This document shows, piece after piece, positions 2,268 through 63,045 of a DNA stretch of 64,000 bases. Under the pieces are notes generated by a model. The model had not been told where the DNA came from. It was given only the letters and a program-made list of their open reading frames with translations, and searched no databases. A program made the translations under genes and the position numbers. The first letter of the stretch is position 1. Every line of letters starts with the position of its first letter. The DNA comes from Zygnema cylindricum. Lineage: Eukaryota > Streptophyta > Zygnematophyceae > Zygnematales > Zygnemataceae. Location: NCBI GenBank assembly GCA_037447655.1, contig JBBHKE010003275.1:57501-121500 (forward strand), given 5' to 3'.

Positions 2268-2321
<54 letters not shown>

Positions 2322-33186: not shown

Positions 33187-33400
33187 GGCACGTGAAGCCG
33201 GTCCAATACGGGGTAGAATATGGAATATCCATACTCGGGCCGCCCGTAAGAAAAGGGTACGGACCCGCCAGTCTCTACATCGAGCTGGTGGCACTGTGGC
33301 AGTGCGTTCGCAGCTGAAGTGAAAGGTCCCAGGTTCGAACCCTGGCCGGCTCAATTTTTCCAAGTGTGGGACATGCCGAATCTCGGATTTCTAAGAAATC
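33187..33400 (+). mobile_element. Probable SINE-like insertion at the end of the copia-2B LTR
   Basis: Sequence absent from the partner LTR, containing a complete tRNA cloverleaf (33282-33353). The flanking LTR bases are too short to confirm a target duplication. No protein is encoded. It could instead be a template-switch product acquired during reverse transcription. Confidence 0.5.
33282..33353 (+). tRNA. tRNA-like cloverleaf, anticodon CTG by position (probable pseudogene or SINE head)
   Basis: A 72-nt fold with a 7-bp acceptor stem (GAGCTGG/CCGGCTC, one G-U), a 4-bp D stem (GCAC/GTGC), a 5-bp anticodon stem (TTCGC/GTGAA, one G-U), a 5-nt variable loop and a 5-bp T stem (CCAGG/CCTGG) with loop TTCGAAC. 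The anticodon loop is AGCTGAA, so position 33 is G instead of the universal U. The anticodon would be CTG (Gln). The missing U33 and the retroelement context argue against a working gene. Confidence 0.5.
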
Positions 33401-44909: not shown

Positions 44910-45124
44910 TGTCGAGCGTGCCTAGGAACCGCGAGGTCCAGGTAATATGTCCAAGGAGGTGTGCATGTGAAACCTGCAATCCACCCTAAATGCTGATGCT
45001 TCCTCGGATCCATGATAATGCCCATCTCTGTTCATTACCCCCCCCCCCCCCCCCCCCCCCTTTGGATATGCATAGATAGTAAAGAGGACTGGAGTGGAAA
45101 AGAAAAGTACCCTGTACCCCCCCA
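44910..45124 (-). repeat. Extra LTR start (U3) beyond the 3' LTR
   Basis: This repeats 46319-46525, the first part of the LTR on the minus strand, including the long C run on the plus strand. It is separated from the 3' LTR by 6 nt (GATTAG). It ends at TGTCGAGCG, one arm of an LTR-internal palindrome. Confidence 0.85.
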
Positions 45125-45130
45125 GATTAG

Positions 45131-46525
45131 TGCTACTCCGCTGGAAGCCCACGAAATGCCACACTCCCAACTACTCTCCAAAGAATAGGAAGGAAATGAG
45201 AGTCGTCCAATCTTTTCCGCAAAAACTCCGGACAAACCTAAAGATGACCACAAGAGTGTGCAAATAACTCCCACGCAGAAATATAGAAATAACAAATATC
45301 GGCTTTTCAGATTAAACAATATCACCTTGCCCCAGAGAATGGAATTAAAGATAGAAATGAATGATAATGGTGAAGCGAATTCACATTCCTCGGAGTGCAA
45401 CGATGACCAAACTCGGCAGAAGAAAACCTCTCCTAATGGCCCCGAAGTCAGGTTTGAGTCTCCCTCACCCCTCCCGGTTCCACCGCAAGGATCCGACAAG
45501 ACTATTCTTAGTTTCAAACAGCGAAAGTCCAAACCGCCCAAAGAGGAGATAGTGCCAACTACCCACCCGTGCTACCGTCTCCATAAAAGACAATCCAAAA
45601 CAAAGATGGCAATAGAGTCAACAACACAATGCAACCGTTCTCCAACAGAATGATTGATTTAATTCTCTGGGGGTTTTCTTAGGAGACAGTACTGAAAAAG
45701 CAATCTGTCTCCTTCGGCCCCAAGTGCCTTATACAACAAGAGTTTGTCCTACTGCAAGTTCCAAAGTCAAAGCAAGGTTGACAAGCCTATCAGCGGCCAG
45801 CAATTGTTATCGTACTGACATAAGACAAAACAGACTCTATTACACTCAGGGCTAAAGATTAGACAACTGGTACTGGCTGGATTAGCGGCCGAAGGTCCTA
45901 CTATAATACACAAAATGGAAACAAAGTTGTGACTTGACGTGAAACCGCCTAACTTTGTCCCAACGTCATAAATGCTTTGCCCTGTGGTTGGGCCTGAACT
46001 AACATCATACTGACAGCTAACAGTAGGATCTACAGGATAATCCCAAATGTTACGTGTTGTTCTTTAAGGTATCCCTCTACTAGAGCTACAAAGAACACAC
46101 ACTATAATGGGGCATACACTTTGCACCGGACTAACTCCTCAGTTCGACCTCCGTTTAAGGTGAACTAAATTGCGTAGTGTTCCAGGATGAAAATATAAAG
46201 ATCTGATCCGGCTGATGGTCACTCTTCCTTCTCCGTACCCTAGAGTCCGTACAAAGTGGAATGAAGCCCCGGAACTCCTGGGAGTGCAAATGTGCCGAAG
46301 ATGCACACGCGCTTGACAGTTGTCGAGCGTGCCTAGGAACCGGGAGGTCCAGGTAATATGTCCAAGGAGGTGTGTATGAGGAACCTGCAATCCACCCCAA
46401 ATGCTGATGCTTCCTCGGATCCATGATAATGCCCATCTCTGTTCATTACCCCCCCCCCCCCCCCCCATATGCATAGATGGTAAGGAGGACTAGAGTGGAA
46501 AAGAAAAGTACCCTGTACCCCCCCA
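45131..46525 (-). repeat. 3' LTR of the DNMT gypsy element
   Basis: A 1395-bp LTR; on the plus strand it runs TGCTACTCCG...TACCCCCCCA, so it is TG...CA in either direction. The inner boundary is set by the polypurine tract at 46530, the outer by comparison with the LTR/primer-site boundary at 56215. The LTR contains a palindrome (arms CGCTTGACA and TGTCGAGCG around 46310-46329), a long C homopolymer (plus strand) and the promoter segment at 45682-45733. Confidence 0.83.
45682..45733 (-). promoter_or_regulatory. Predicted TATA box and self-priming R region of the gypsy LTR
   Basis: On the minus strand TATAAGG (45733-45727) lies about 21 nt upstream of a hairpin-forming segment with arms GGAGACAG and CTGTCTCC (45712-45682). 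A start site 25-32 nt below the TATA would fall at 45709-45702, inside that segment. The segment is complementary over about 25 nt to the sequence just after the LTR (56214-56190). Confidence 0.6.
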
Positions 46526-46529
46526 GATT

Positions 46530-46542
46530 CCCCCCCCCCTCT
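46530..46542 (-). promoter_or_regulatory. Polypurine tract of the gypsy element
   Basis: On the minus strand AGAGGGGGGGGGG, four nucleotides (AATC) before the LTR's TG. A 7-bp inverted repeat (CTTAGTC/GACTAAG, 46541-46560) lies immediately upstream. The tract would prime plus-strand synthesis. Confidence 0.7.
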
Positions 46543-46573
46543 TAGTCCCACGTGACTAAGAGGATTAGACAGA

Positions 46574-46885
46574 TTAGCCGCCAAACTCGTAGTCCCCACA
46601 GAACCACGGATTTGCGGGTTGAGAGCGGGGCTCCCAATTTAGAGGTAGACAATTGTCATGCCACCCTTGGTGACAGTGTTCACACACCAACAAGAGGTTG
46701 GGTACGGAGGACACATGGCAGGCAGAGGAACAGGCTGGAGGGTCTGCAAAATAAGTGAGATGGAAAATGGGTTCATCCTCTAACCCTCGCAGATGGCAAG
46801 GGGCCACATTGATCTGATTTTCTTTAATTTTGCAGGGCATCCTTCCCCTCCAAGGTAAGAACCCCTTTGTTTGAGACCCCCACAA
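46574..46885 (-). pseudogene. pol: C-terminal PHD-like zinc finger of the gypsy integrase
   Basis: A 103-residue frame following the integrase in another frame. After an IKENQINVAPCHL segment comes a zinc-finger pattern: C52-x3-C56, C68-x2-C71, H76-x2-C79, C96-x2-Y99. The core CEHCHQGWHDNC and NPWFC closely match PHD fingers (Cys4-His-Cys3), which read histone H3 tails. The last Cys is replaced by Tyr (TAC, one transition from TGC), so this copy has probably lost its final zinc ligand. Its place at the end of integrase, where chromoviruses keep a chromodomain, suggests a role in choosing integration sites. A RING or other treble-clef finger is the alternative. Confidence 0.65.
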
Positions 46886-47605
46886 CTTTCAGAATCACCC
46901 GTCCGGCCGAAATGTCCGAAGTATCCTTCTTCTCTTGCATGCGATACACAAAATCCGCGGGCACAAATCGACGTGGCCGGGGGACATAATTGCCGCTCCG
47001 TTGTTGGGAATACTAGAGTTGATCTCTGTGCTGAGCAGCCTATAAATTGCCCATGGCCAGAGGTATTTCCCGCTGCCCGGTCGGCAATCGGTTTTTCTAG
47101 AATACCCCGGTTGTCCATCTTCGGAAGAACAACCGCCTGAGCCGACGCAGCCCCTGGTAGGATGGGATGTCGGCCGAATAGAATGAAGTAAGGGCTATAG
47201 GAGTGGAGAGATGCCTGCCTGCTGAACTTGTACCCCATGGCAATCCAAGGCACCTGTGTGTCCCACTCCCCCAAATCCTCTTCAACCACATATTTCCGTA
47301 GTGACCGCTTCACTGTCTCTACGCACCTCTCGACCAAGCCCTCGGCTTGGGGGTGGTCTCGACTAGTCAACGTGTGGTCAATGAGGCACTTCTGCAGAAG
47401 GTTAGAAAATTCTCCGGCAAACTCGGACCCCTGATCGGTCAGAACTTCGGCCGGTGCTCCAAATTGAGACAACACTCTCTGCAAGAATGCTTCCGCGATT
47501 ACTTTGGACTCCTTTCGGGAAGAACCACCAATTCAATCCACTTAGAGAAGTGTTCAATCATGACCAGAACAAAACGGTTCCCCCTCTGGCTAGTGGGAAG
47601 TGGTC
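46780..47605 (-). pseudogene. pol: Gypsy integrase catalytic core, frameshifted
   Basis: 46780-47484 reads VLSQFGAPAEVLTDQGSEFA (second catalytic Asp), RDHPQAEGLVERCVETVKRS (Glu) and the tail SPYFILFGRHPILPGA. The first Asp lies just upstream, in frames broken by a stop at 47606 and a frameshift near 47510. Downstream of ILEKPIADRAAGNT the frame shifts again, and the basic C-terminal region continues towards the PHD-like segment. Integrase would join the cDNA to the target. This copy is non-functional. Confidence 0.85.
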
Positions 47606-48532
47606 CTAGTAGATCAGATCTAGTGACCATCTGTAAAACATCCCCCGGATGGGGAGAGAGTGAAGCTCAGTTCCACCCTTTTTGTCAAAAGTTGCTTTTA
47701 CCTGGTCACAAGAAGGGCACGTTTGCACCACACGATTGACCTGGGCCCGCAACCCATACCACCAATACGACCATGTGACTAACGAGGTGGTTCGTTTCTG
47801 TCCAAAGTGCCTGCATTGCTGGTGAAGCCGAACAATGAGCTTTTCCCGATTTGCTGGAGGAGGAACCACTTTCCTTGTCCCATTGGCCCATTTCCGGAGA
47901 AGGCTGCCTCGGTCCCATTCATAAGCCGCCATTCGGTTTTGAACACGGGACAATTGACTTCCGGCAAGGTGGGATAGAGGAGAGCCATTTTGGATAGATT
48001 GGACGGAATCGCTGTCATTCCATATATCTTTCCAGCCGGCTCCAATGGAGGCCTGCCCCTCTACATCTGCAGCAAAAGTTGACAGTTCTCCTTCGGCCCG
48101 AGGCAGCCAAATAAAAGTAGAGGAAGCCCGGATAAGTCCAAGGCTGAGCTCAGAGTCTTCGTCATGTCGCGCCCTTGTAGAGCCTCTGGTGGAAGGGTCC
48201 GGATTCCTGCTGAGTCCGTCGGCATTCCCATGAATCTCCCCGGCTCTATGGATGATGCTGAAATCATATTCCTGCAAGATGAGAACCCATCTGGCCAGCT
48301 TTCCAATTAACTTACTGTTCTCCATGATCCATTTGAGGGGCTGGTGATCCGTAATAAGGGTGAAGTGTACTCCATAAAGGTAAGGCCGAAAGTGCTGGAT
48401 GGCCCAAACCGCAGCGAGTAATTCCCCATGGTAACTGCTGTAATCCCCCTCGGCTCTGTTATTATTCCGGCTTGCGTAGGAAACTACATACTCAGCCCCT
48501 GCGTCGTCCAATTGAGCCAAAAGTGCTCCCAA
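47606..48532 (-). CDS. pol: Gypsy RNase H and integrase zinc domain
   Basis: A 308-residue open segment in the same frame as RT. RNase H blocks: ALLAQLDDAGAEYVVSYASR, YSSYHGELLAAVWAIQHFR and TDHQPLKWIM, then IHRAGEIHGNADGLSR. The integrase HHCC domain follows: H in LHQQCRHFG (two His) and TCPSCDQVK (two Cys). It ends at a stop at the beginning of the integrase core (DLIY). The first residue is not a true start; the segment is internal to a Pol polyprotein, cut from RT by one TAA. Confidence 0.88.
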   Translation of the reverse strand: MGALLAQLDDAGAEYVVSYASRNNNRAEGDYSSYHGELLAAVWAIQHFRPYLYGVHFTLITDHQPLKWIMENSKLIGKLARWVLILQEYDFSIIHRAGEIHGNADGLSRNPDPSTRGSTRARHDEDSELSLGLIRASSTFIWLPRAEGELSTFAADVEGQASIGAGWKDIWNDSDSVQSIQNGSPLSHLAGSQLSRVQNRMAAYEWDRGSLLRKWANGTRKVVPPPANREKLIVRLHQQCRHFGQKRTTSLVTWSYWWYGLRAQVNRVVQTCPSCDQVKATFDKKGGTELHSLPIRGMFYRWSLDLIY

Positions 48533-48571
48533 TCCGAACCTGCTCCAATCTGTATAAAGGAAAAAAGGCCG

Positions 48572-49408
48572 TTAGTGATCGGGCATCCGGAGCACAGGAT
48601 ACTGTTTGAGGGAATCCTTCAGGAATTGGAACGCTATCTGCAGTTCTTCCTTCCACTGCCACTCCTGTTCCTTTCGCAACAATTGGTTCAATGGCTGAGC
48701 GTGGCTACTGAATTCAGGAATAAACCGCCGGTAATAGTTGGCAAGGCCTAGGAAAGTACGAAAAGCAGAAATGTCCTGCGGGGGTGGAAGAGCGTCTAGG
48801 GCTGCCACCTTAACCATGTGGGGACCCACTGTCCCGGGAGTCACCTCATGATCCAGATAAATAATTTTCTGCACCCCAAAGATGCCCTTCCCCGGGTGAC
48901 ACTTCAAGCCCGCTGCTTGGAGTGCCCGGAGAACGATCTGTATGTGCTCCAAGAGTTCTTCGAATGTCTTGGAGAAAATGATAACATCGTCGATATAACA
49001 CCGTGTGAAATCAATTCCCCGGAGAGCCTCGTCCATGGCCCGTTGGAATTTGGCAGGTGCATTCTTGAGGCCAAATGGCATGTACAGCCATTCATATAGC
49101 CTAGATCCGACCCAAAAAGCAGTCCTCTCTCGGTGTTTTGGCTCCATTGCAATCTGGTGGAATCCATTTTTCATATCCAAAGTAGAGTAAATGGTGGCCC
49201 CAACAAGAGAGTCGAAAATCTCTTCCGGGGTAGGCATAGGATAACGGTCGGAGACAGTCGCCGCGTTGAGCTTCCGATAGTCCCCACACATCCAGAAATC
49301 TACAGTTTTTCCAGAGGAGTCTTTCTTTGGCGGGAGCACGGTTGGTGAGGCAAACCCATGTAGTCCTGTACTCTCCTGAACCAGTCCAGCTTCCACCAAA
49401 GTCTGCAC
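48572..49408 (-). CDS. pol: Gypsy reverse transcriptase
   Basis: A 278-residue frame with all Ty3/gypsy RT blocks: GFASPTVLPPKKDSSGK, CGDYRKLNAATVSDRYPMPT, STLDMKNGFHQIAM (first catalytic Asp), FGLKNAPAKFQRAMDEAL, YIDDVIIFS (catalytic pair near residues 140-141), GLKCHPGKGIFG and FLGLANYYRRFIPEFS. It makes cDNA from the element RNA. It lies in the same frame as the DNMT-end/linker segment upstream (past a TAG at 49451-49453) and RNase H downstream (past a TAA at 48572-48574). Confidence 0.92.
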   Translation of the reverse strand: MQTLVEAGLVQESTGLHGFASPTVLPPKKDSSGKTVDFWMCGDYRKLNAATVSDRYPMPTPEEIFDSLVGATIYSTLDMKNGFHQIAMEPKHRERTAFWVGSRLYEWLYMPFGLKNAPAKFQRAMDEALRGIDFTRCYIDDVIIFSKTFEELLEHIQIVLRALQAAGLKCHPGKGIFGVQKIIYLDHEVTPGTVGPHMVKVAALDALPPPQDISAFRTFLGLANYYRRFIPEFSSHAQPLNQLLRKEQEWQWKEELQIAFQFLKDSLKQYPVLRMPDH

Positions 49409-49450
49409 CTTTGAAGTGATGAACTCCTTCTCCTTGAAACTGAGAGGGTA

Positions 49451-50158
49451 CTATTTCTGCCAAACAGTAGCCGTCTCGTCGATCAGGTCAATCCGAAAAG
49501 GAGTTCCCTTATAGATCCCTACATCTGTGTCAGACCAGGCGAACACCTGCGAATTCTCTTCTAACAGCTTGGAGAGCCGGGCCTTTTGCTGTGGGTCTAG
49601 CTGTTCACCTAGAGTCCAGTCCATCTTCCCGGGTTCCACTGCCGCCAATGCTTCTGGTGGTCTCCCCAAGAGAGAGATGTCGAAGTTCAACTCTACCAGT
49701 GGGTCTCTCCTTTGTTCCGCTGTTAAAACGCTGCTGCTGACAACTTCCTCTAGGCTGTCATGTTCTGAGACTCCGTTCCCCCCCACTAAGGAAACTCCTG
49801 GGTCCAGTGTGCCATTGCTCCCCCCCACTGAGGAAGTTCCTGGGAATTTGGTGAATGTGAATTTTTCCCTTCTTGTCTCTCTCCCTCCCTCAAGCTTTAG
49901 AGTTGCTTGCATAGCCAACAACTGTGGAGCTTGAAGGTATGTTGTCCCTGATTGTGGAGACTGAAGGCTGGAGAATGCAAGAGAATGTTTCAGCACCCAG
50001 GAAATTGCATTTAAATCCATGCTTTGTCCGATTAAACTGCACCTTTTTGAAGCCGATACCCCTGGCGCAGTTGTGGCTCTTTGTTGAAACCCCATTGCTT
50101 GTTCCCGTTCTGTAAAATTCGGCGCTGTCCACGTGGCGGTTGTACCGTCAAAGATCAT
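49451..50158 (-). CDS. pol: DNMT C-terminal motif X region and linker to RT
   Basis: A 235-residue frame. Its first 60 residues contain TEREQAMGFQQR and LIGQSMDLNAISWVL. They resemble the C-terminal end of C5-methyltransferase catalytic domains (REr...GF then IGnsm...), so the DNMT continues here after a frame change near 50160-50313. A low-complexity linker follows with duplicated VGG(S/N)G motifs. Then comes the RT approach (LSKLLEENSQVFAWSDTDVG, a Ty3/gypsy hallmark) ending at a TAG. The frame is shared with RT. It shows that the DNMT is embedded in pol between protease and RT. Confidence 0.75.
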   Translation of the reverse strand: MIFDGTTATWTAPNFTEREQAMGFQQRATTAPGVSASKRCSLIGQSMDLNAISWVLKHSLAFSSLQSPQSGTTYLQAPQLLAMQATLKLEGGRETRREKFTFTKFPGTSSVGGSNGTLDPGVSLVGGNGVSEHDSLEEVVSSSVLTAEQRRDPLVELNFDISLLGRPPEALAAVEPGKMDWTLGEQLDPQQKARLSKLLEENSQVFAWSDTDVGIYKGTPFRIDLIDETATVWQK

Positions 50159-50312
50159 TCCTGGTGCACCCTTCCAGTAAGCGTGGCTGTTAGGAAAAGA
50201 TACCAGAGGTTGGGAGGGCCCTGCATGGATACCCAGGCTTATTACAACAGAAGAAGGGTGCTTTGTCGGCTGTGATCACCAGCGTGGCCATTCGCCCCGG
50301 TCGGAGAATCTG

Positions 50313-51092
50313 TTAAACCGTGATGTTGGGATCCGTAACCTGTGTTCTCAACAGCTGTTGGAGGATTGGAAGAGGAACCAAGTTGGTCCAATATGCCCGA
50401 ACTCTGTGGGCTCTCGATCCAATCTGAGCTGCATCAAAAACTATGGGAGTCCCTAGAACCTTGGTCATTTGGTTCCAGCTGTTGACCACATGTTTTCTCT
50501 TATCATCTGTGGGGTGAACGTTTTCCAAGATGTACCCCACTGGTGTGTCCTGGCGTTCGTGTAACCCTATTATTAGTCTGGTCATTTGGAAGAAAGTTCT
50601 GCTACGGACGTCCTGGTGTCCTCGGCCCTGTCCTGCTAACGAATACCCCTGGCATGGCCATCCAGCGACCACAAGGTCTACCTTTCCGAGCTTTTCCACA
50701 TGGGACTCCGTGATATTATCCATATTCTGGGGAAGCGTGCGATGAGAGTTAGACATGGCGGACACCGGGAGTTGCTGTGGGTAAAGTTGGTGCAGCTGTT
50801 GCAGGCGGTACTCACTGACTGCACGGGCGTCCAAGTCAATCTTGACTGCCGAGTAAGTTTCTATTTGGTATCTAGCTTTCAGGACGGCTTCCTGATCGGA
50901 ACTAATGCCAGAAAATAGGGATATAATCCTAAGTCCTGAAAGCGGGATTTGTAGTGACACCACTTGTCGGTTAAAGTCTTTCCCTTTGTTAGGAGCCGTT
51001 GGAAGTTCCGACCTGGGGACTTTTGTTGCTCCGGGTGATATTGCAACCAAGCTCCTGTCCACTTCCAGCCGAAGTGTGGCCATCTGTACCAA
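50313..51092 (-). CDS. C5 cytosine-DNA methyltransferase domain in gypsy pol
   Basis: A 259-residue frame with ordered C5-methyltransferase motifs: I (LRIISLFSGI, residues 54-63; cofactor binding), IV (GWPCQGYS, catalytic Cys147), VI (YILENV, Glu190) and VIII (SRAHRVRAYWTN, residues 226-237). Motif X lies in the next frame. The GRGHQDVRS segment after motif IV and the AHR-x-R...W-x-N form of motif VIII recall DNMT3/DRM enzymes more than DNMT1 or CMT. It would transfer methyl from S-adenosylmethionine to cytosine C5. It is in the same frame as the protease, parted by one TAG (51138-51140), so it is part of Pol. It ends at a TAA (50313-50315). Catalytic residues are intact, but stops and a frameshift probably disable this copy. 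Confidence 0.87.
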   Translation of the reverse strand: MVQMATLRLEVDRSLVAISPGATKVPRSELPTAPNKGKDFNRQVVSLQIPLSGLRIISLFSGISSDQEAVLKARYQIETYSAVKIDLDARAVSEYRLQQLHQLYPQQLPVSAMSNSHRTLPQNMDNITESHVEKLGKVDLVVAGWPCQGYSLAGQGRGHQDVRSRTFFQMTRLIIGLHERQDTPVGYILENVHPTDDKRKHVVNSWNQMTKVLGTPIVFDAAQIGSRAHRVRAYWTNLVPLPILQQLLRTQVTDPNITV

Positions 51093-51137
51093 TCGGTTCT
51101 GATACTCCCTTTCCCATTGCTTGGAAATAGGGAATTG

Positions 51138-51884
51138 CTAGATAGAATCAGCGATATCGTTAGAGTATTTGAACAGCTCCGAGGGGGTTGAGGCAGAGTA
51201 GACAGGATAGCATCCAGACACCGGAACAGTCGTTTTTCCCCGGTTCCACAAATCCAAGGGGACCACCACTTTTGTTCCTTCCGGATCCTCAGGGTCATAG
51301 ACTGTAACTTGTTCTTTCCATACGCTCAACTCCATGTTCAACCTTGTCCACGTAGCCATACCCAGCAAAATTTCAAATTGCTTACCTTCCACCACTAGGA
51401 AGGGAAGCCGAATCTGCTCGTGCTGGCCTGCGTCGTCAACAAATTCGATTTCCATGGCTTTTATGATCCCATATACTGGTTGGCTGCCACTGCTGACTGT
51501 GCTCAAGCATATGTTACTTGGACAGATTTTTGGCAGGAGTTCCTCGGGCATTTGTTTTAACGCTGATGTAGTTATTAAGTTTGGAAGAGCTCCAGTATCC
51601 ACCACTGCATCCTGGTACCCGCCGTATCTATTAAGTTTAAAATTTCCCGTCCTATTGAGAATAAGAGCCACCGAAAGGGCCTTATAATCCCTATCTGCCA
51701 TAGAGGTTTTTGGTTCTGCCGACATGAAGACTGTCTTGGGCGGTTCTTCCAACGCGACCCTTTTCCTCCTAGTGTGAATTTCTTCCCCTAATGCCTGAAT
51801 GAGGGTTTCTTCTGGCAGATTGTGGGAGGAAGCCAGCGTTTTGACATGCGTGAAGGCGTAGGGCATTAAGTGTCGTACTAGCAT
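51138..51884 (-). CDS. pol: Gypsy aspartic protease
   Basis: A 248-residue frame with the retropepsin active site in QDAVVDTGALPNLIT (Asp96), then FLVVEGKQFEILLGMATW, the usual flap and hydrophobic (ILLG) blocks. It would cleave the polyprotein. It ends with TAG, and the same frame continues into the DNMT. The N-terminal 60 residues are a Gag-protease linker. Confidence 0.87.
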   Translation of the reverse strand: MLVRHLMPYAFTHVKTLASSHNLPEETLIQALGEEIHTRRKRVALEEPPKTVFMSAEPKTSMADRDYKALSVALILNRTGNFKLNRYGGYQDAVVDTGALPNLITTSALKQMPEELLPKICPSNICLSTVSSGSQPVYGIIKAMEIEFVDDAGQHEQIRLPFLVVEGKQFEILLGMATWTRLNMELSVWKEQVTVYDPEDPEGTKVVVPLDLWNRGKTTVPVSGCYPVYSASTPSELFKYSNDIADSI

Positions 51885-52081
51885 AACTGCCGGTTTGGAG
51901 GAAGGAGGGAGAGCTTTGGGCGATGAAATGGGTGAGTCCTCGTCTTTCTGATTTCTCTTGTTCCCCCCCCCCCTGCTTCCTCACTTTCTACGTTAGAATT
52001 CCCTGTATGAGGTGTAATTGGCGGATCTGTGGACGGTCTCTCAGCTATGTATCTGTCGAACCACTCTTGATCTTGATCTGT

Positions 52082-53136
52082 TTAAGTGGTTGAATTATTT
52101 TCTTTCGGCTGTGTCTTCTTGTAATCTTCAAAACCGGGAGGAAGTTTCTTCGGAGCCGGAGGAGGCGGGTTAGTGGGCTTTAGTCCTTGTCCAATGTTAC
52201 TGTTTAGAAGGACTGCTCGCGGGGTAAAGGATAAAGGGCCGGTGGCCTTGCGACAATGGTCCTTTTGTTCCATCGATTGTTTGTCTTTTCTTTGGGATGA
52301 CGTTGTAGAGCGCAGTTGCCTGCGATTGTCCCCTACACCAACGTTCCATGCTCCGGACAGAAATGTTTTAGCATGATGAGCCTTTGGAGGCTCCATATCC
52401 CAACCCATCAGGTCATCATAATCTCCACCCAACGTGGTCTGCTGCTCCAGCTCCGCTAGCTTTTGTAGCAGTTCTTGTTTTTGTTTCTGCAGTTTCTGAG
52501 CCGGCGTAAGAGGTTGAGGAGTGCGGGCAGAGGATCTCAGTCGGAGAGCGGCTAGTTCTGTTGCCAAAGCGGGCAACTGAGTGCTCTGTTGCTGAATGAT
52601 ATGTTCCGGTGTTAGTCTGCTGGGGCCCGGTTCATTTGGAGATCGTCCCCAGGGATACAAAAGTTGCAGTGGCAGAGGATTAACGACAGTTTCCCCTTCG
52701 CTTGTAAACAAAGCATATTAAATCATCTCTTTCGAAACCCCATTTTTCCGAAAGCATTGCCCTTCTTTGTGGCCCATGAACCCACAAGCTTCACATTTTG
52801 ACCCTTCAGTAGTATACTCCCCCCTTAGCTCATTAGAGATTTGAGCGTCATCGAATTTCGGAAGTCGGATTGGTGACAACTAGGATTCAGACATTTTGGC
52901 GGTTTCAGAGCGTGGAGTAGGTTTATAGGTTTCCTTAGTGACCGGGGTCCGGACTCTTCCTCCGCTTCCTTGATTGCGTTCTTGCTGTTTCCTTGTTCTT
53001 TCCGCATGCTCCCTCTCAAACTCATTCTGCTTGATGGCGAGTTCTGGTTTGAGCTTTCGGGGGCACCTCTTCCATCCGTGACTTGCTGGTTACAGTTCAG
53101 GCAGTCGTAAAGAAAAACTTTTTCATCTCCCCCCAT
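52082..53136 (-). pseudogene. gag: Gypsy copy A gag C-terminus with two zinc knuckles, broken
   Basis: Frames 52825-53136 and 52082-52711. By comparison with copy B (58236-58860) the region holds two CCHC knuckles: one of form CLNC...GH...C near 53080 and one CEACGFMGHKEG-x-C near 52760. In copy A the first is frameshifted, and a stop near 52715 follows the second. A coiled-coil-like LQKQKQELLQKLAELEQQ segment lies at about 52450-52510. It would bind nucleic acid. Confidence 0.75.
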
Positions 53137-53304
53137 TGCAGGTTCTGGTCAGGCATCCGCTTCTTGTTTCCCCTTAAGCTTCCGCAAAGCTTGCAGTTCT
53201 GTCTGTTCGTCGTGGCTGAGCGATGTTTCCCCGACGAAACCAGCAAAGTTGGCTCTTGATTTCCCGGTAACAGCCTTTCTCGTGCCTCGCTATTAACAAA
53301 ATGA

Positions 53305-54042
53305 TCATACAATTTCATAGCAGCCAATGAAATTTCTTGAGCTGTGGGATTGCGATCGTGTATAGCTTGACTGGCACTCCAATTGTCCAGAGCTGCCTGT
53401 CCCGTTGGCCCGAAGGAATTTTTGATCAGCGACATAATATTTGGTGGCCATACCCGGTGTATCGATGGTGGACAGTTTGGTCTTCTGGTAGAGGTTGGAG
53501 AGGCGGTTGAACAGCGTCTGGGGAGTTTCATTCTTCAAACAGCGCAAGTCTTTGAACTCCTTGATGGCAGTTTCGTTCCTTTCTGTGTGAAGGAGTCTCC
53601 AAGCGTCCAGAAGAGTGGTACAGGGATTAGGATTGGCAACCATCCGGGTGGCCGCTTCGGCTGCCTGTACAGCCTGAAGGTGGTTGACATAGGCCCTGCC
53701 TTGGGCCTGAAGTTTCATATCCATGGTGAAATTGGGGGTGAGAGGAGCTGCGGCTGCGGCAGCCAGGTCGGCTGCTGCCTGAAGAGCCTCGGCGTCCAGA
53801 GCCGGATCCGATATTTTGATAGTGGGGGCCATCAACAAAGGTTGACGCTCCTTGTAATCGGCCAAAGCTCCTCCGGCTAGATAATTTACCATCATCGGAA
53901 ACAGGGTTGTTTCAAAATCTGCTGGAATGGCCCCTCCCCTGTATTTGTTGATTTCAGATTGGGTGAACGACTTCCACAACAGTTCGAAATCAGAGAAAGC
54001 GATTCCCGATCTATCTCCTCTAAAGATCCTTACGTCCCCCAT
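53305..54042 (-). CDS. gag: Gypsy copy A Gag core
   Basis: A 245-residue frame opening MGDVRIFRGDRSGIAFSDF, with FELLWKSFTQSEINKY, LAGGALADYKERQP and, near residues 155-195, the gypsy Gag core: TTLLDAWRLLHTERNETAIKE, FKDLRCLKNETPQTLFNRLS. A frameshift near 53440 moves the rest into the overlapping frame 53097-53531 (SASQAIHDRNPTAQEISLAAM and following). Copy B has the same protein at 58830-59765 without that break. It assembles particles. Confidence 0.82.
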   Translation of the reverse strand: MGDVRIFRGDRSGIAFSDFELLWKSFTQSEINKYRGGAIPADFETTLFPMMVNYLAGGALADYKERQPLLMAPTIKISDPALDAEALQAAADLAAAAAAPLTPNFTMDMKLQAQGRAYVNHLQAVQAAEAATRMVANPNPCTTLLDAWRLLHTERNETAIKEFKDLRCLKNETPQTLFNRLSNLYQKTKLSTIDTPGMATKYYVADQKFLRANGTGSSGQLECQSSYTRSQSHSSRNFIGCYEIV

Positions 54043-54390
54043 TTCTATTTCCTCCTCAGCAAGGTTGGTGAACTGTGAAGAGATGGTTCGGTTGGGCTAA
54101 CAAACTGAACCGGTGAATTACCCCTGGATCTGTGTCGTCTGGCTCAGGCTCGCCTCCTTCTCCAGTAGAGGGAGCGGTCTGACGAGAGATGGCACTCCCC
54201 CCCATTGAGGAAGTTCCGGTTACTGGTGGGATAGTGAGATGACCAGTATCTCCCTGGAGTTCGCCTTTAGGAAACGAGGAGTTTATCACCTTGGGAAAAG
54301 CTGCTCGGAGTTCTGCTCCTCTTTACCCAGAAGAGGCCTGTTCCTCCCGGTGAAATGTTTCCACTGAGGGAATGTGGAGAATAGGTTTAG

Positions 54391-56016
54391 TCACCAGTGG
54401 TCTTCAGGGATTGGTGGAGTAAGGGATGGAGATGACCGAGGAATACGAGGGAAAGGTGTCTGTTTCTGTGTACGCTTTTTGGAGGTTTTTGGTGAAAGAG
54501 TTCCTTTGCTAGAATCAGGAGAACGTCGGTGAGGAGGAGAGTAGGCAGGAATGTCGTACTTGTAGGGTAAGACGCGTGGTCCTGGGGACCCACAGACTGC
54601 AGCGGCCGGAGAAACACAAGGCGAAGGAGAGGATGCCTGAGGTGGCGATGGAGGAGGAGTAGTACGTTCGAGGGAAATGTGTAGTCTTTGGTCTGGTTGT
54701 AGCTGCACCACGGCCTCCACGGTAGAAGATCCCTCGACCGAGACAATGGTAGGGAGATCTGTAGCCGCGGCTACCGGATTACTCGGCAAATCTGCACCCA
54801 ACCTCTTTTTGTTAGGCCTTGTTGTTTCCTCCCCTTCCCGCTGAAGAGGAGTTTCTGGTCTCGGTTTTGGTGAAGTCCACGGATCTCGCGTGACAGGGGG
54901 AGTTGCCTGATCCAGAGGTTGTACTTCCGTCGCGGGACGTGTTCTACGGGGAGGTAGTACTTGTCCAGTAAGGATTCCCCCAGATCTCCGTCTAGCCTCC
55001 CTTATCAGGATTAGCTCCTGTTCCAATGCTCACTTCCTTTCCTCTTCAAGGGCATCCCAATCTATTGCGACGGGTCCGGCCCACGCCGTAGCCTTATCCT
55101 GCGATCGTAGAATCTCAACCAATTTCTGGGTGCTGCTCACCACACCCGAGAGATCCGCAATCCCCAAACCGGGTACCTCGGGGTCCGTAGGCCTTGAACG
55201 CCATAGTCTTTCGGATGGTCGGACAACTGGTGCGGAAGGAGACATAGAACTTGGGGAAATTGAGGCAGAAGGAAAGAACGACTCTTCTTTGACTAGGGGA
55301 GCAAATTGACCTTTGCTCTCCCGATGGTTGAACCGGAAATCTCTCTTAGGCTCAGGTAACTTCCGCTTGCTACTCCCTTCCCTGGTCCTGCCCCGAGAAG
55401 TTGCTCTCCCCCTAGAAGGTCTCTTCGTAGCGATTTCCTGAGATATGGTGGGCTGCGGGTAGTAAGTTGATGGTCCTCCCTGTTGTTCTAGTGCTGAGGT
55501 TGGGGAGCCGCTCTCCGACAAACTACTGAATAACTCTACTACACCTCCCACTGGGCGTACCACCTTGGCTCGGTCTGACCTGGCCACTCGCTGCACCAAC
55601 TCCTTCTTAACCTTCAATTCATGGAGATTATGAAGGGCTAAGATTTCCTTGCGACCTGGCCGGTTAGGATCAGACAGAATCTCAGGATCTATGTATATCT
55701 CTGCTATCATTGCCTTGGACGTGGTAAAGCAACCAATTTCGGGAAGGGGACCAGAGATCCCTTCCTTGTGTGCCAACCCCTTTCTACGACTTTTAGGAGA
55801 AAGGGGCGGCCTCTCCGCCCTATCCGCTGCCGAAGCTCGGGCTGACTCGGACAGAGTTGGAAAGTTCTCGGAGGAAAAGACAGGTGGAGGTGGAGGAGAG
55901 GGTCGCCTCTCTGGCTGTGTTGGAGGAGTGTTGACTGCAACCTCCGGAGGCATCTCTCCTCTAAGAAACCACTCTATGTGTAAAGGGGAGCCAAAGGGGG
56001 GTGCTTCCTCAGGCAT
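54391..56016 (-). pseudogene. Gypsy copy A ORF1: long proline-rich region upstream of gag core
   Basis: Two collinear frames (55030-56016 and 54391-55026) parted by one stop after DWDALEEERK; copy B is open there. It starts near MPEEAPPFGSPLHIEWFLRG. The sequence is mostly disordered and Pro/Ser/Arg-rich (RPSPPPPPVF, RGRATSRGR). One conserved block is PEILSDPNRPGRKEILALHN, HELKVKKELVQRVARSDRAK, shared with copy B. No known domain recognised. It may be an N-terminal Gag extension that contacts RNA or host factors. 54043-54390 holds only broken frames of the same region. Confidence 0.65.
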
Positions 56017-56189
56017 CTGAGACTCTTCCTCTTAGGCCACCGCTTTCTGCCTCTCCTGCTCTTCTGATCTGACACCCGGAAGATCCTTATCCCGAACTTC
56101 TCCTCCCCCCATAACTGACTAGAGAAGAAGATCTAAATCCCCTTATATAAAAGTACTCCGATCTGAGCACCTATCCTCTTTAACCTAAA

Positions 56190-56214
56190 GAGACAGGTTG
56201 CTTTTTCAGTACTG
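56190..56214 (-). promoter_or_regulatory. Putative self-priming primer-binding site of gypsy copy A
   Basis: Directly after the LTR end (CA at 56215-56216, minus strand), the RNA would read CAGTACTGAAAAAGCAACC and on to CTGTCTC. It shows no match to common tRNA 3' ends that I know. It is complementary over 25 nt, with one G-U pair, to the LTR segment at 45712-45687. Confidence 0.65.
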
Positions 56215-56657
56215 TGCTACTCCGCTGGAAGCCCACTAAATGCCACACTCCCAGGTACTCTCCAAAGAATAGGAAGGAAATGAGAGTCGTCCAATCCTTT
56301 CCGCAAAAACTCCGGACAAACCCAAAGATGACCACAAGAGTGTGCAAATAACTCCCACGCATAAATATAAAAATAACAAATATCGGCTTTTCAGATTAAA
56401 CAATATCACCTTGCCCCAGAGAATGGAATTAAAGATAGAAATGAATGATAATGGTGAAGCGAATTCACATACCCCGGAGTGCAACGATGACCAAACTCTG
56501 CAGAAGAAAACCTCTCCCAATGGCCCCGAAGTCAGGTTTGAGTCTCCCTCACCCCTCCCGGTTCCACCGCAAGGATCCGACAAGACTCTTCTTAGCTTCA
56601 AACAGCGAAAGTCCAAACCGCCCAAAGAGGAGATAGTGCCAACTACCCACCCGTGCT
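56215..56657 (-). repeat. Gypsy copy A 5' LTR, truncated at the assembly gap
   Basis: It matches 45131-45573 and 61861-62303 almost base for base, then runs into the N gap. Only the last third of the LTR (minus-strand sense) remains. Confidence 0.9.
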
Positions 56658-56667
56658 NNNNNNNNNN
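56658..56667. other. Assembly gap (10 N)
   Basis: Ten undetermined bases. LTR homology ends on one side and a different LTR family begins on the other, so the adjacency of the two sides is not established by sequence. Confidence 1.
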
Positions 56668-58226: not shown

Positions 58227-58243
58227 GTATCGAGGTTGGGGAG
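58227..58243. repeat. hAT MITE terminus scrap at the truncation of gypsy copy B
   Basis: TAATGTTGGGTATCGAG equals the first 17 nt of the MITE at 4371 except one base. It is followed immediately by gypsy gag sequence. The rest of the MITE is absent. Confidence 0.55.
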
Positions 58244-58616
58244 TGCGGGCAGGGGATCTCAGTCGGAGAGCGGCCAGTTCTGTTGCCAAAGCGGCCAACT
58301 GAGTGCTCTGTTGCTGAATGATATGTTGTGGTGTCTGTCTACTGGGGCCCTGTTCATTGGGAGATCGTCCCCAGGGATACAAAAGTTGCAGTGGTAGGGG
58401 ATTATCGGCAGTTTCCCCTTCGCCTGTAAACAAAGCATACTGCATCATCTCCTTTGGAACTCCATTTTTCCGAAAGCATTTCCCTTCTTTGTGGCCCATG
58501 AATCCACAAGCTTCACATTTCGACCCCTCAGTAGTATACTTCCCCCTTAGCTCATTAGAGATTTTAGCGTCATCGAATTTCGGAAGTCGGTTTTGTCTCA
58601 ACTGGGATTGAGACAT
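58236..58616 (-). pseudogene. gag: Gypsy copy B gag C-terminus with CCHC knuckle, truncated
   Basis: MSQSQLRQNRLPKFDDAKIS, then the intact knuckle CEACGFMGHKEGKC and the proline/leucine-rich tail homologous to copy A 52513-52860. Gypsy homology ends at about 58236. A second knuckle CLNCNQPGHGWKRC lies just upstream, around 58790-58830, in another frame. Confidence 0.8.
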
Positions 58617-58829
58617 TTTGGCGGTTTCAGAAAGTGGAATAGGTTTATTGGTTTCCTTAGTGATTGGGGTTCGGTCTCCTCCTCCACCTCCTTGCTTGCG
58701 TTCTTGCTGTTTCCTTGTTCTTTCCGCACGCTCTCTCTCAAAATCCTTCTGCTTGATGGCGAGTTCTGGTTTGAGCTTTCGGGGGCACCTCTTCCATCCG
58801 TGACCGGGCTGGTTACAGTTCAGGCAATC

Positions 58830-59765
58830 TTAAAGAAAAACTTTTTCATCTCCTCCCATTGCAGGTTTTGGTCGGGCATCCGCTTCCTGTTTCCCTTTAT
58901 GCTTCCGCAAAGCTTGCAGTTCTGTCTGTTCGTCGTGGCTGAGCAATGTTTCCCCCGCGAAACCTGCAAAGTTGGCTCTGGATTTCCCAATAACAGTCTT
59001 TTCTCGTGCCTCGCTATTAACAAAATGATCATACAATTTCATAGCAGCCAAAGAAATTTCTTGAGCTCTGGGATTTCGATCGTGTATAGCCTGACTGGCA
59101 CTCCAATTGTCCAGAGCTGCCTGTCCCGTTGGCCCGAAGGAATTTCGAACAACGACATAATATTTGGTGGCCGTAGCCGGGGTATCGATGGTGGACAGTT
59201 TGGTCTTCTGGCAGAGGCTGGAGAGGCGATTGAACAGCGTCTGGGGAGTTTCATTCTTCAAATAGCGGAAGTCTGTGAACTCCTTGATGGCAGTTTCGTT
59301 GCTTTCTGTGTAAAGGAGTCTCCAAGCGTCCAGAAGAGTGGTACAGGGATTAGGATTGGCAAGCATCCGGGTGGCTGCTTCGGCTGCCTGTACACCTGGA
59401 GGTGGTTGACATAGGCCCTGCCTTGGGCCTGAAGTTTCATATTCATGGTGAAAGTGGGGGTGAGAGGGGTTGCGGCTGCGGCGGCCAGGTCGGCTGCTGC
59501 CTGAAGAGCCTCGGCGTCCAGATCCGGGATCCGATATTTTGATACTGGGGGCCATCAACAAAGGTTGACGCTCCTTATAATCGGCCAAAGCTCCTCCGGC
59601 TAGATAATTTACCATCATCAGAAACAGGGTTGTTTCAAAATCTGCTGGAATGGCCCCTCCCCTGTATTTGTTAATTTCGGACTGCGTAAAGGATTTCCAC
59701 AGCAGTTCAAAATCAGAGAAAGCAATTCCCGAGTTGTCCCCGGTGAAGATCCGGACGTCTCCCAT
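58830..59765 (-). CDS. gag: Gypsy copy B Gag core
   Basis: A 311-residue open frame, the most complete Gag core in the window. It has MGDVRIFTGDNSGIAFSDF, LAGGALADYKERQP, TTLLDAWRLLYTESNETAIKE, FTDFRYLKNETPQTLFNRLS and NWSASQAIHDRNPRAQEISL. A short out-of-frame stretch (PGSGRRGSSGSSRPGRRSR) replaces the Ala-rich segment of copy A, which shows two compensating frameshifts. It stops at an in-frame TAA just before the first zinc knuckle. Confidence 0.85.
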   Translation of the reverse strand: MGDVRIFTGDNSGIAFSDFELLWKSFTQSEINKYRGGAIPADFETTLFLMMVNYLAGGALADYKERQPLLMAPSIKISDPGSGRRGSSGSSRPGRRSRNPSHPHFHHEYETSGPRQGLCQPPPGVQAAEAATRMLANPNPCTTLLDAWRLLYTESNETAIKEFTDFRYLKNETPQTLFNRLSSLCQKTKLSTIDTPATATKYYVVVRNSFGPTGQAALDNWSASQAIHDRNPRAQEISLAAMKLYDHFVNSEAREKTVIGKSRANFAGFAGETLLSHDEQTELQALRKHKGKQEADARPKPAMGGDEKVFL

Positions 59766-59944
59766 TCTCCTTTCTTCTTCGGTAGGATTGGTGAACCTTG
59801 GTGACGCCTGTCCGGTCGGGCTGACAAACTGAGCCGGTGAGATTGCCCCAGGATCTGCTACCTCGAGATCCGAACTGGTCCCTCCTCCAATAGGAAAGGC
59901 GGTTGTATCAGCAGTTGCTCCCGCCCCCGCTCAGGAAGGTCTTG

Positions 59945-61688
59945 CTATTGAAAAAGTTGGATAGTCGTCTGCTCCTCTATATCCAAGAGAGGCTCGTGCT
60001 TGACAGAGAACTTCCTCTTCTGATGGTATGTGAAGACGAGGTCTAGTTCCCCGGAAATGGATGACGGCGGAGAAGGTGAACACAAGAAGCTTGGAGGAGA
60101 AGGTGACTGTTTCTTGAAAGGAGTCTGCTTCCTAGGTCGCCTCTGGGAATCTTCGGGAGGAGGAGTTCCAGAACTAGAGGATGGCGAACGTCTGTGAGGA
60201 GGCGAGTAGACGTCAGGTTTGGAGGATGGCCGAAGTGGACCTAGTGACCCACGGACTGCTCCCGAGGGGAAGATGGATTGCGAGGGGGAAGAGGCGTGAG
60301 GTGGTGATGGGTGAGGAGTGGTAAGTCCGAGGGAAATGTGTAGTCTCCGGTCGGGTTCTAGCTGCACCACGGCCTCCACGGTGGAAGATCCCTTGACCGA
60401 GACAAATGTAGGGAGATCTGTAGCCGCAGCTACCGGATTACTCGGCAAATCTGCACCCAACCCCTTTTTGTTAAGCCCTGTTGTTTCCTCCCCTTCCCGC
60501 TGAAGAGGAGATTCTGGTCTCGGTTCTGGTGAAGTCCGGGGATCTCGCTGACAGGAGGAGTTGCCTGATCCAGAGGTTGTACTTCCGTCGCGGGACCTGT
60601 TCTACGAGGAGGTGCTACCTGTCCACTAAGGATTCCCCCATATCTCCGTCTAGCCTTCTTATCAGGATCAACTCTTGTTCCAATGCTCTCTTCTTTTCCT
60701 CTTCAAGGGCATCCCAATCTATTGCGACGAGTCCGGCCCCCGCCGTAGCCTTATCCTGCGATCGCAGAATCTCAACCAATTTTTGGGTGCTGCTCACCAC
60801 ACCCGAGAGATCCGCAATCTCCAAACCGGGTTCCTCGGGGTCCGTAGGCCCATTTTCCTTCGGATGGTCTGACAACTGGTGCGGAAGGAGATATAGAACT
60901 TTGGGAAATCGAGGCTAAAGGAAAGAACGGCTCTTCTTTGTCTAGGGGAGCAAATCGACCTTTGCTGTCCCGATGGTTGAACCGGAAATCTCTCTTAGGC
61001 TGAGGTAACTTCCGCTTGCTACTCTCTTCCTTGGTCCGGCCCCGAGAAGTTGCTCTGCCCCTAGAAGGTCTATTGGTAGCAGTTTCTTGAGATATGGTGG
61101 GCTGTTGTCGTGAAGTAGACGGCATCTCCGGTTGCTCTCGGACCAAGATGGGAGAGCCACTTTCAGACGAGCTACTCAGGATCTCCACTACTCCTCCCAC
61201 TGGGCGTATGATCCGAGCTCGTTCGCTTTTGGCAACCCGCTGCACCAGCTCCTTCTTTACCTTCAATTCATGGATATTGTGAAGGGCTAGAATCTCCTTA
61301 CGACCGCGTCGGTTAGGATCAGACAAAAGTTCAGGATCCATGTATGTCTCAACTATCGGACTTTGGATCTGGTATAACGTACCACCTCGAGAGGGTGGCC
61401 TGGGACCGCTTCCTTATGTGCCAACCCCTTTCTACGACTTTTAGGAGAAAGGGGCGGCCTCTCCGCCCTCTCCGCTGCCCAAGCTCGGGCTGATTCGGAC
61501 AGAGTTGGAAAGTTCTCGGGGGAAAAAACAGGTGGAGGTGGAGGAGAGGGTCGCCTCTCTGGCTGCGTTGGAGGAGTTTCGATTGCAACCTCCGGAGGCA
61601 TCTCTCCCCTAAGAAATCGCTCTATGTGTAAAGGTGAGCCAAAGGGGGGTGCTTCCTCAGGCATCTGAGACTCTTCCTCTTGGGCCAC
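59945..61688 (-). pseudogene. Gypsy copy B ORF1 (pieces)
   Basis: Frames 61353-61688 (starting MAQEEESQMPEEAPPFGSPL), 60772-61341, 60615-60875 and 59945-60460 are collinear with copy A ORF1 and carry the same conserved block (SDPNRRGRKEILALHN, ELKVKKELVQRVAKS). Frameshifts occur near 61350, 60880 and 60620. Copy B keeps the EEEKKRALEQELILIR junction open, where copy A has a stop. Function unknown. Confidence 0.7.
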
Positions 61689-61836
61689 CGCTTTCTGCCT
61701 CTCCTGCTCTTCCTATCTGACACCCGGAAGATCCTTATCCTGAACTTCTCCTCCCCCCATAGCTGACTGGAGAAGAAGATCTAAATCCCCTTTTAAAAGT
61801 ACTCCGATCTGAGCACCTATCCTCTTTAACCTAAAC

Positions 61837-61860
61837 AGACAGGTGGCTTTTTCAGTTCTG
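61837..61860 (-). promoter_or_regulatory. Putative self-priming site of gypsy copy B
   Basis: Same position as in copy A, directly after the LTR; minus-strand CAGAACTGAAAAAGCCACCT. It has diverged from the LTR-internal partner (62412-62442) at several positions. Confidence 0.5.
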
Positions 61861-63045
61861 TGCTACTCCGCTGGAAGCCCACTAGATGCCACACTCCCAG
61901 CTACTCTCCAAAGAATAGGAAGGAAATGAGAGTCGTCCGATCCTTTCCGCAAAAACTCCGGACAAACCCAAATATGACCACAAGAGATTGGAAATAACTC
62001 CCACGCAGAAATATAGAAATAACAAATATCGGCTTTTCAGATTAAACAATATCACCTTGCCCCAAAGAATGGAATTAAAGATACAAATGAATGATAATGG
62101 TGAAGCGAATTCACATACCCCGGAGTGCAACGATGACCAAACTCAGCAGAAGAAAACCTCTCCCAATGGCCCCGAAGTCAGGTTTGAGTCTCCCTCACCC
62201 CTCCCGGTTCCACCGCACGGATCCGACAAGACTCTTCTTAGTTTCAAACAGCGAAAGTCCAAACCGCCCAAAGAGGAGATAGTGCCAACTACCCACCCGT
62301 GCTAGGGTATCCACAAAAGACAATCCAAAACAAAGATGGCAATAGAGTCAACGACACAATGCAATCGTTCTCCAACAGAAAGATTGATTTAATTCTTTGG
62401 GGGTTTTCTCAGGAGACACTACTAAAAAAGCAACCTGTCTCCTTTGGCCCCAAGTGCCTTATACAACCAGAGTTTGTCCTACTGCAAGTTCCCAAGTCAA
62501 AGCAAGGTGACAAGCCAATCAGCGCCCAGCAATTTTTATCGTACTGACATAAGACAAAACAGACTGTATTACACTCAGGGCTAAAAATTAGACGATTGGT
62601 CCCGGCTGGATTAGCGGCCGAGGGTCCTCCTGTAATACACAAAATGGACACAAAGTTCTGACTCGACGTGAAACCGCCTAACTTTGTCCCAACGTCATAA
62701 ATGCTTTGCCCGGTGGTTGGGCCTGAACTAACATCATACTGACAGGTAACAGTAATATCTACGAGATAATCCCAAATCTTACGTGTCGTTCTTTAAGGTA
62801 TCCCTCTATTAGAGCTACAAAGAATACACACTATAAAGGAGCAAACACTTTGCACCGGACTAACTCCTCAGTTCGACCTCCGTTTAAGGTGAACTAAATT
62901 GCGTAGTGTTCCAGGATGAAAATATAAAGATCTGATCCGGCTGATTGTCCTCTTCCTTCTCCGTACGCTAGAGTCCGTACAAAGTGGAATGAAGCCCCGG
63001 AACTCCTGGGAGTGCAAATGTGCCGAAGATGCACACGCGCTTGAT
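61861..63045 (-). repeat. Gypsy copy B 5' LTR, lacking its first ~210 nt
   Basis: It matches 45131-46316 along its length. On the minus strand it begins at TCAAGCGCG, inside the LTR palindrome, instead of at the LTR start, and is followed outward by AGAGT and copia LTR. The missing start is the part found separately at 44910-45124. Confidence 0.87.
62412..62463 (-). promoter_or_regulatory. Predicted TATA box and R-region hairpin, copy B LTR
   Basis: TATAAGG (62463-62457, minus strand) and the GGAGACAG/CTGTCTCC-type hairpin segment (62442-62412) are conserved in position with those at 45682-45733, though the hairpin arms have changed. Confidence 0.5.

Follow-up and report, generated by a model that had tools for sequence, protein, structure and literature searches.

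Structure of the Element in the Window

The stretch analysed here, hereafter the window, comprises 64,000 nucleotides of the alga Zygnema cylindricum (assembly GCA_037447655.1, contig JBBHKE010003275.1, positions 57,501 to 121,500), and at 44.9–56.7 kb of it lies a degenerate copy of a Ty3/gypsy-class retrotransposon that is present in many copies and has a DNMT3-type DNA methyltransferase (DNMT) at the start of pol. Matches to the methyltransferase profile recur throughout the genome, and the enzyme is maintained by purifying selection. The domain order is protease (PR)–DNMT–reverse transcriptase (RT)–RNase H–integrase–PHD finger, with a gypsy-type RT and a DDE integrase, which, apart from the DNMT and PHD finger, corresponds to the Ty3/gypsy order. 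A preliminary description, made from the letters alone, had placed a C5-methyltransferase between a retropepsin and a gypsy RT, in phase with the protease frame, and the coordinates below bear this out. The features are as follows, with E for expectation value:

44.9–56.7 kb, minus strand: Ty3/gypsy-class element with DNMT, whole
56658–56667: assembly gap truncating the A1 repeat
56214..56657 (−): A1 repeat, 5′ end of the element; 97.1% identity to A2 over 444 bp
52082..56031 (−): gag region in several broken frames; DNA 90–91% identical in the second copy in the window
51138..51980 (−): aspartic protease (DTGA); Asp_protease_2 E 0.0067, below the cut-off; frame retained in other copies
51138..51140 (−): TAG in frame, with CAATTC after it; a putative readthrough stop that parts PR from DNMT
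50313..51137 (−): DNMT3-like C5-methyltransferase, motifs I–VIII; PF00145 E 1.3e-13, DNMT3A E 9.4e-11
49451..50275 (−): DNMT motifs IX/X and the linker leading to RT, here in a frame other than that of motifs I–VIII; from alignment to uninterrupted domains
48572..49450 (−): reverse transcriptase (YIDD); RVT_1 E 8.1e-27
47606..48571 (−): RNase H and integrase H2C2 zinc finger; E 2.7e-33 and 9.2e-14
46780..47532 (−): DDE integrase core; rve E 2.3e-5, below the cut-off; matches at 14 of 19 genomic loci
46574..46888 (−): C-terminal PHD finger; PF00628 25.2 bits, cut-off 24
46531..46545 (−): polypurine tract ahead of B1, candidate plus-strand primer; direct reading
46321..46530 (−): B1 repeat
45130..46318 (−): A2 repeat
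44910..45129 (−): B2 repeat, 3′ end of the element
58232..63044 (−): second copy of this family, truncated, in which gag and an A repeat are present and pol is absent; 90–95% identical blocks

Two of the Pfam matches are weak by themselves, namely those of the protease (17.5 bits against a cut-off of 24.3) and the integrase core (25 bits against 32.6). The gag region gave no gag match in the Pfam scan and has protein-level matches in other genomic copies. DIRS elements are marked by a tyrosine recombinase and by the lack of a target duplication; no tyrosine recombinase match was found in the window pieces scanned with Pfam, and DDE-type integrase domains are present instead.

The Methyltransferase Domain

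The motifs LFSGI, GWPCQG, ENV and AHRVR all lie in the single open frame 50313–51137 (−), where they had been placed from the letters, and the stretch with motifs IX and X lies in a different frame (49451–50275), as claimed. A DNA_methylase profile search, proposed in the preliminary description as a check, gave 51.5 bits with PF00145 against a cut-off of 22. The claim that the frame is broken stood in part: the break between motifs VIII and X is decay of the window copy, because two other copies, L009 and L010, cross that stretch without a stop, whereas the TAG that separates PR from DNMT is conserved in the family and is not damage.

The solved proteins closest to the window DNMT are DNMT3A and DNMT3B. 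Similarly, a profile built from ten domains of this genome matched DNMT3A (E 2.7e-19), HaeIII (2.9e-8), DRM2 (1.1e-6) and DNMT2 (1.5e-6), and no chain named DNMT1 or CMT was found among the 55 structure chains listed for it. A structure model of the half domain in the window, used only as a side check owing to its low confidence (pLDDT, the predicted local distance difference test score, of 50), had DNMT3A/3B entries for all 50 of the matches listed. The C5-methyltransferase motifs I, IV (PC), VI (EN), VIII (RxR) and X are present in order in the window type, and judged by motifs and profiles the domain is a C5 DNA methyltransferase of DNMT3-like kind.

Motif IV varies among the 47 domains compared, reading PC in 25, EC in 19, CC in 1 and PY in 1 and missing from 1 truncated domain. 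The EC form, a change of Pro to Glu with the Cys kept, occurs in seven copies of this genome (L011, L012, L017, L021–L024) and in the protein records P0127–P0130, P0132, P0134–P0136, P0138, P0139, P0145 and P0146. In P0126 the catalytic Cys of motif IV is replaced by Tyr (GWPYQG), and this enzyme is probably dead.

Copies in the Genome and Selection

The genome searched, assembled into 2,689 contigs, totals 352.8 Mb and contains at least 123 scored DNA_methylase (PF00145) matches, 123 of 782 candidates having been scored. Nineteen PF00145 loci, picked for the presence of DNMT, were read at about 10 kb each; tblastn with pieces of the window element found DNMT at 19, RT and RNase H at 17 each, integrase at 14, PHD at 12 and PR at 10, although tblastn overlooks distant proteases, such as that of L011, which was seen by profile instead. 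Copies of the window type (type A) have about 90% protein identity to the window element. In the A′ subfamily the DNMT is about 48% identical; A″ is a third subfamily, met after A and A′; and in type B the DNMT is about 39% and the RT about 50% identical.

Among the copies read are L009 and L010, both of type A, which have a protease frame, the TAG and then a single open frame of 1520 and 1525 codons, respectively, covering DNMT–RT–RNase H–integrase–PHD. L011, of type B, is a single frame of 2395 codons with zinc knuckles, protease, DNMT, RT, RNase H, integrase and PHD. A single-copy chimera is ruled out by the scored PF00145 matches together with the two open type A copies. The PHD finger (cut-off 24 bits) is canonical in L011, at 44.3 bits, and scores 25.2 in the window and 21.8 in L009. 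A PHD finger also occurs in the Chlamydomonas element REM1, on which the literature search gave no paper.

The ratio of nonsynonymous to synonymous substitution rates (dN/dS), calculated by the Nei–Gojobori method, was 0.14, 0.12, 0.11, 0.23 and 0.23 for the DNMT of five type A pairs and 0.12, 0.10, 0.08, 0.20 and 0.22 for the RT of the same pairs. In the sixth pair, L027/L028, the DNMT is identical in DNA while the RT differs with a dS of 0.12, which suggests sequence exchange between copies. Other DNMT pairs gave 0.17 for type B, 0.07 twice for A against A″, and 0.18 and 1.31 for A′, where the value of 1.31 rests on very few changes; for the remaining pairs dS was saturated. When different subfamilies or diverged type B copies are compared, the DNMT has 2.4 to 3.6 times the dN of the RT. 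The DNMT is thus maintained by purifying selection, yet it evolves more rapidly than the RT.

The Stop Codon between Protease and Methyltransferase

An in-frame TAG stands between PR and DNMT at all 50 readable junctions, which belong to three subfamilies (40 A, 8 A′ and 2 A″); the type A junctions are 40 scored places out of 448 candidates, and L060, where the region read missed the junction, is not counted among the 50. In type A the codon after the TAG is CAA in 39 of 40 copies and TAA in L019. The context TAG-CAA-TTC (TTG in L018) agrees at five of six positions with CAR-YYA, the context of type I readthrough, which has been reported as essential for readthrough in tobacco mosaic virus (PMC2754532). 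An additional in-frame stop lies near the junction in 10 of the 40 type A copies.

A single base change would open the frame at the TAG, and between subfamilies synonymous sites are saturated or dS exceeds 1. Retention of the TAG together with the frame across such subfamilies is stronger support for programmed readthrough than its presence in 40 of 40 type A copies, and suggests that the stop is a programmed readthrough site. Decay as an explanation of the TAG is dismissed by its presence in every readable junction, and its use as a sense codon is unlikely, the 1520-codon frame of L009 being without any TAG. A strong hairpin about nine bases 3′ of the TAG, with z from −4.2 to −5.3, is predicted in four of five A′ copies (L015, L069, L070 and L071); it is weak in L018 and was not seen among the A and A″ copies folded, two of each, and it was rejected as a shared readthrough signal.

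Repeats, Ends and Target Duplications

Comparison of the window with itself gave the layout A1–coding–B1–A2–B2. In C1344, a type B copy, the A repeat is 931 bp long, with no difference between A1 and A2, and B1 matches B2 at 99.6%. The element begins with TGTC at A1 and ends with GACA at B2, so that in place of the same long terminal repeat (LTR) at both ends, as expected of Ty3/gypsy elements, the 5′ end is A and the 3′ end is B; an ordinary LTR element is ruled out by this end structure. The B–A–B arrangement, common to types A and B, was seen in the window copy and in C1344, C1042, C1120 and C2344, while C1374, C1920 and C544 have the form A–coding–B. The B1/A2 junction reads GACA-NN-TGTC in all six copies read (spacer GC in four, GT in one and AC in the window), and a polypurine tract lies upstream of B1 in the window and in C1344.

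The search for both ends covered 16 copies, and 13 are counted. The other three are C1407, in which no 5′ end was found, C10, whose 3′ end lies outside the stretch, and C2298, which gave no match. An exact 4-bp target duplication flanks five of the 13:

C1344: TTGG
C1915: CCCT
C829: AAGG
C953: CACT, with the A1 start degraded
C2344: AAAA, of low complexity

Where several type B end positions matched, the exact TGTCATGCCG was chosen.

Relatives and Domain Orders

The region search yielded 26 related polyproteins, mostly metagenomic; the named sources are Klebsormidium nitens, Haematococcus lacustris, Closterium sp. NIES-54 and one coded Chrzof1, which we take to be Chromochloris zofingiensis. 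The DNMT lies before RT, or after PR where the record ends, in eight of them (P0123–P0126, P0134, P0136, P0142 and P0147), and after RNase H in 13, in twelve of these before the integrase, the record of P0148 ending first; the order was not assigned for five (P0128, P0130, P0131, P0140 and P0146). P0123 has an rve integrase core of 49.7 bits. The green-algal and metagenomic relatives P0127, P0138, P0141 and others resemble the window family in having a gypsy RT, a DNMT of the same group and, in most, a C-terminal PHD motif, but their DNMT follows RNase H, mostly before the integrase, whereas that of the window family precedes RT. In P0147, from Closterium, the gene model has copia-type domains followed by DNMT and gypsy RT, perhaps a nested insertion.

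In the DNMT tree, which omitted seven of the 47 domains as near-duplicates or short, a single branch (support 99/96) parts the before-RT from the after-RNase-H arrangements; the tree is unrooted and its five unassigned rows are uncounted. The two arrangements may reflect two captures of a DNMT or one relocation within pol, either of which fits the unrooted tree. In the RT tree, which omitted two of 30 sequences and to which 15 listed relatives found by RT were added, the before-RT types are not united in a single group (four changes). The named organisms among the 120 RT relatives listed include Closterium, K. nitens, the liverwort Calypogeia, some insects and Volvox, and their sequences suggest an affinity of the RT with streptophytes. 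No relatives were found by tblastn of phage records with the RT, nor by close-relative scans of IMG/VR contigs with the DNMT and the RT.

Comparison with Known Systems

The kind of element is already known. It has been reported that KnitGypsy-Dnmt3 of K. nitens has a Dnmt3 in a gypsy pol, DIRS-like repeats (their structure being given in a figure legend) and Ka/Ks below 0.2, and that the Dnmt3 domains of SymbioDIRS are active (de Mendoza et al. 2018, PMC5890265). Some DNMT3 members reside in retrotransposons of streptophytes and dinoflagellates (PMC12344493), and methylase-bearing retrotransposons of green algae and charophytes have been described without distinction between adenine and cytosine enzymes (PMC6338049).

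The assignment of this copy to a charophyte group of gypsy-type DNMT captures, made in the preliminary description, is supported by the K. nitens element, whose protein P0142 (KFL_009030040) has the DNMT at the same place in pol, between PR and RT, and whose repeats have the A–coding–B–A–B form of the window and C1344; C1374, C1920 and C544 here are A–coding–B only. The K. nitens DNMT, likewise under purifying selection, shows 42% identity across 62% of the query and falls on the same side of the 99/96 branch as the window family, its inner placement having a support of 57/64. Unlike the window family, the P0142 record has no TAG between PR and DNMT; it is marked partial, and the K. nitens element may still have a PHD finger. 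The main text of PMC5890265 contains neither the word PHD nor the word readthrough.

SymbioDIRS-Dnmt3 of Symbiodinium shares with the present family a Dnmt3 in pol, A–coding–B–A–B repeats and more than one domain order; it has a tyrosine recombinase and a DIRS-type RT, whereas the window family has a DDE integrase and a gypsy RT (PMC5890265). In gammaretroviral gag-pol, a case of UAG readthrough, the UAG likewise stands in frame before pol, but here the protease precedes the stop and the DNMT follows it, and readthrough is putative. The open-licence literature searched, mostly judged by titles and the starts of abstracts, gave no account of elements of this kind that have a readthrough stop, a PHD finger or the DNMT at a changed place. 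Five features are unreported in the literature searched: the conserved TAG-CAA/TAA, the TGTC...GACA ends with 4-bp duplications in five of 13 copies and the internal GACA-NN-TGTC junction, the PHD finger, the relatives with DNMT after RNase H, and the EC form of motif IV.

Proposed Mechanism and Alternative Explanations

The reading we put forward, as somewhat more likely than not, starts from the anatomy, copy number, selection, conserved TAG and repeat layout shown above. The majority of ribosomes would halt at the TAG and yield Gag-PR, while a minority would read through to give Gag-PR-DNMT-RT-RNase H-integrase-PHD; as part of this fusion, the DNMT would be packaged at the level of pol. It would methylate cytosines, probably in CG, of the double-stranded complementary DNA (cDNA) or the fresh insert, and this could be its main role, for which, judged from sequence, we see a little less than an even chance. 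Plus-strand priming at the polypurine tract before B1 would make B+A the "LTR", and the integrase would act at the B/A junction (GACA-NN-TGTC) of circularised or otherwise permuted DNA, leaving A–coding–B–A–B flanked by a 4-bp target duplication. This form would arise from a circle that holds two B+A units, and A–coding–B from one with a single unit. The PHD finger would probably steer insertion by reading a histone tail. A more far-reaching reading, to which we give a little less than an even chance, is that of a gypsy lineage off the LTR plan, with pol metered by readthrough, insertion steered by a PHD finger, a DDE integrase acting on permuted DNA, and a DNMT moved or captured twice during green-algal evolution, often with EC at motif IV.

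Several observations weigh against parts of this reading. As regards the stop, the sixth base of its context is C or G and not the A of CAR-YYA; within type A, three of the 37 codons around the TAG are invariant in the 40 copies, and a TAG in 40 of 40 is unremarkable alone; RNA folding found no downstream structure common to A, A′ and A″ copies; and L011, the only type B copy examined at the junction, has a DNMT and no stop there, so readthrough is not required for the DNMT as such. The stop is also absent from the record of the metagenome protein P0124. Possibly the TAG is not read through and simply terminates Gag-PR, while DNMT–RT has another source, be it a separate RNA, a spliced one or re-initiation. 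The departure from CAR-YYA at the final base would agree with this, but the frame continues through the TAG in three subfamilies and the QFPIS right after it is conserved, with no Met there in the stretches printed, and we regard such an origin as improbable. As regards the ends, C449 agrees at only three of the four bases of a duplication, and none was found in seven of the 13 copies (C2577, C783, C1120, C1042, C1374, C1920 and C544); all type B ends except those of C1344 were located by motif with mismatches allowed. The three A–coding–B copies are among the seven, which counts against the one-unit-circle step. These gaps, the A–coding–B copies themselves and the unlike A1 and A2 of C1042 (80%) and C1120 (91%) might also be explained by ordinary ends to which tandem or nested insertions had added the 3′ B–A–B, with no unusual integration route. 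Against this stand the recurrence of B–A–B in five copies of types A and B alike, the same layout stated for KnitGypsy-Dnmt3, and the duplications that flank the outer ends of five copies, and ordinary ends seem to us improbable.

The role of the enzyme is likewise contested by the evidence. KnitGypsy-Dnmt3 was inactive in yeast, a result that its authors call inconclusive (PMC5890265). The observed/expected ratio of CpG is 0.62–0.68 at type A, A′ and A″ loci, against 0.64 in the copia stretch and 0.83 at the left end of the window, and in five type B loci it is 0.89–1.04, that is, not depleted. The value of the type A group thus equals that of copia and type B is undepleted, which gives no sign of special self-methylation, and CpG depletion as such a sign is not supported. 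It is conceivable, though on balance unlikely, that the targets of the DNMT are host chromatin or rival elements, or that it disturbs host factors, and that the element itself is methylated by host enzymes. Depletion at the level of copia fits this alternative, as does the report that K. nitens elements carry CHG and CHH methylation like other silent elements (PMC5890265); however, the domain sits inside pol, where it would be packaged with RT, and RT trees show the DNMT kept in several gypsy lineages.

Significance

Retrotransposons are normally targets of DNA methylation, a picture that is challenged by elements that keep a methyltransferase under selection. The many scored DNMT matches in a further genome, together with relatives that carry the enzyme elsewhere in pol, suggest an old and widespread strategy, and several enzymes thereby become available for comparison of activity. 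In addition, the conserved stop raises the question of how much enzyme each particle receives, and the end structure raises that of how a DDE integrase can yield DIRS-like ends.

Other Features of the Window

Copia elements and repeated pieces are densely packed between 19000 and 44600, and within this copia-rich stretch ARAGORN called a tRNA-Gln (CTG) at 33282–33353 (+); Rfam gave nothing at gathering score within the window. At 733–2967 (+) lie open frames rich in Pro and Gln for which Pfam gave no match, possibly a host gene.

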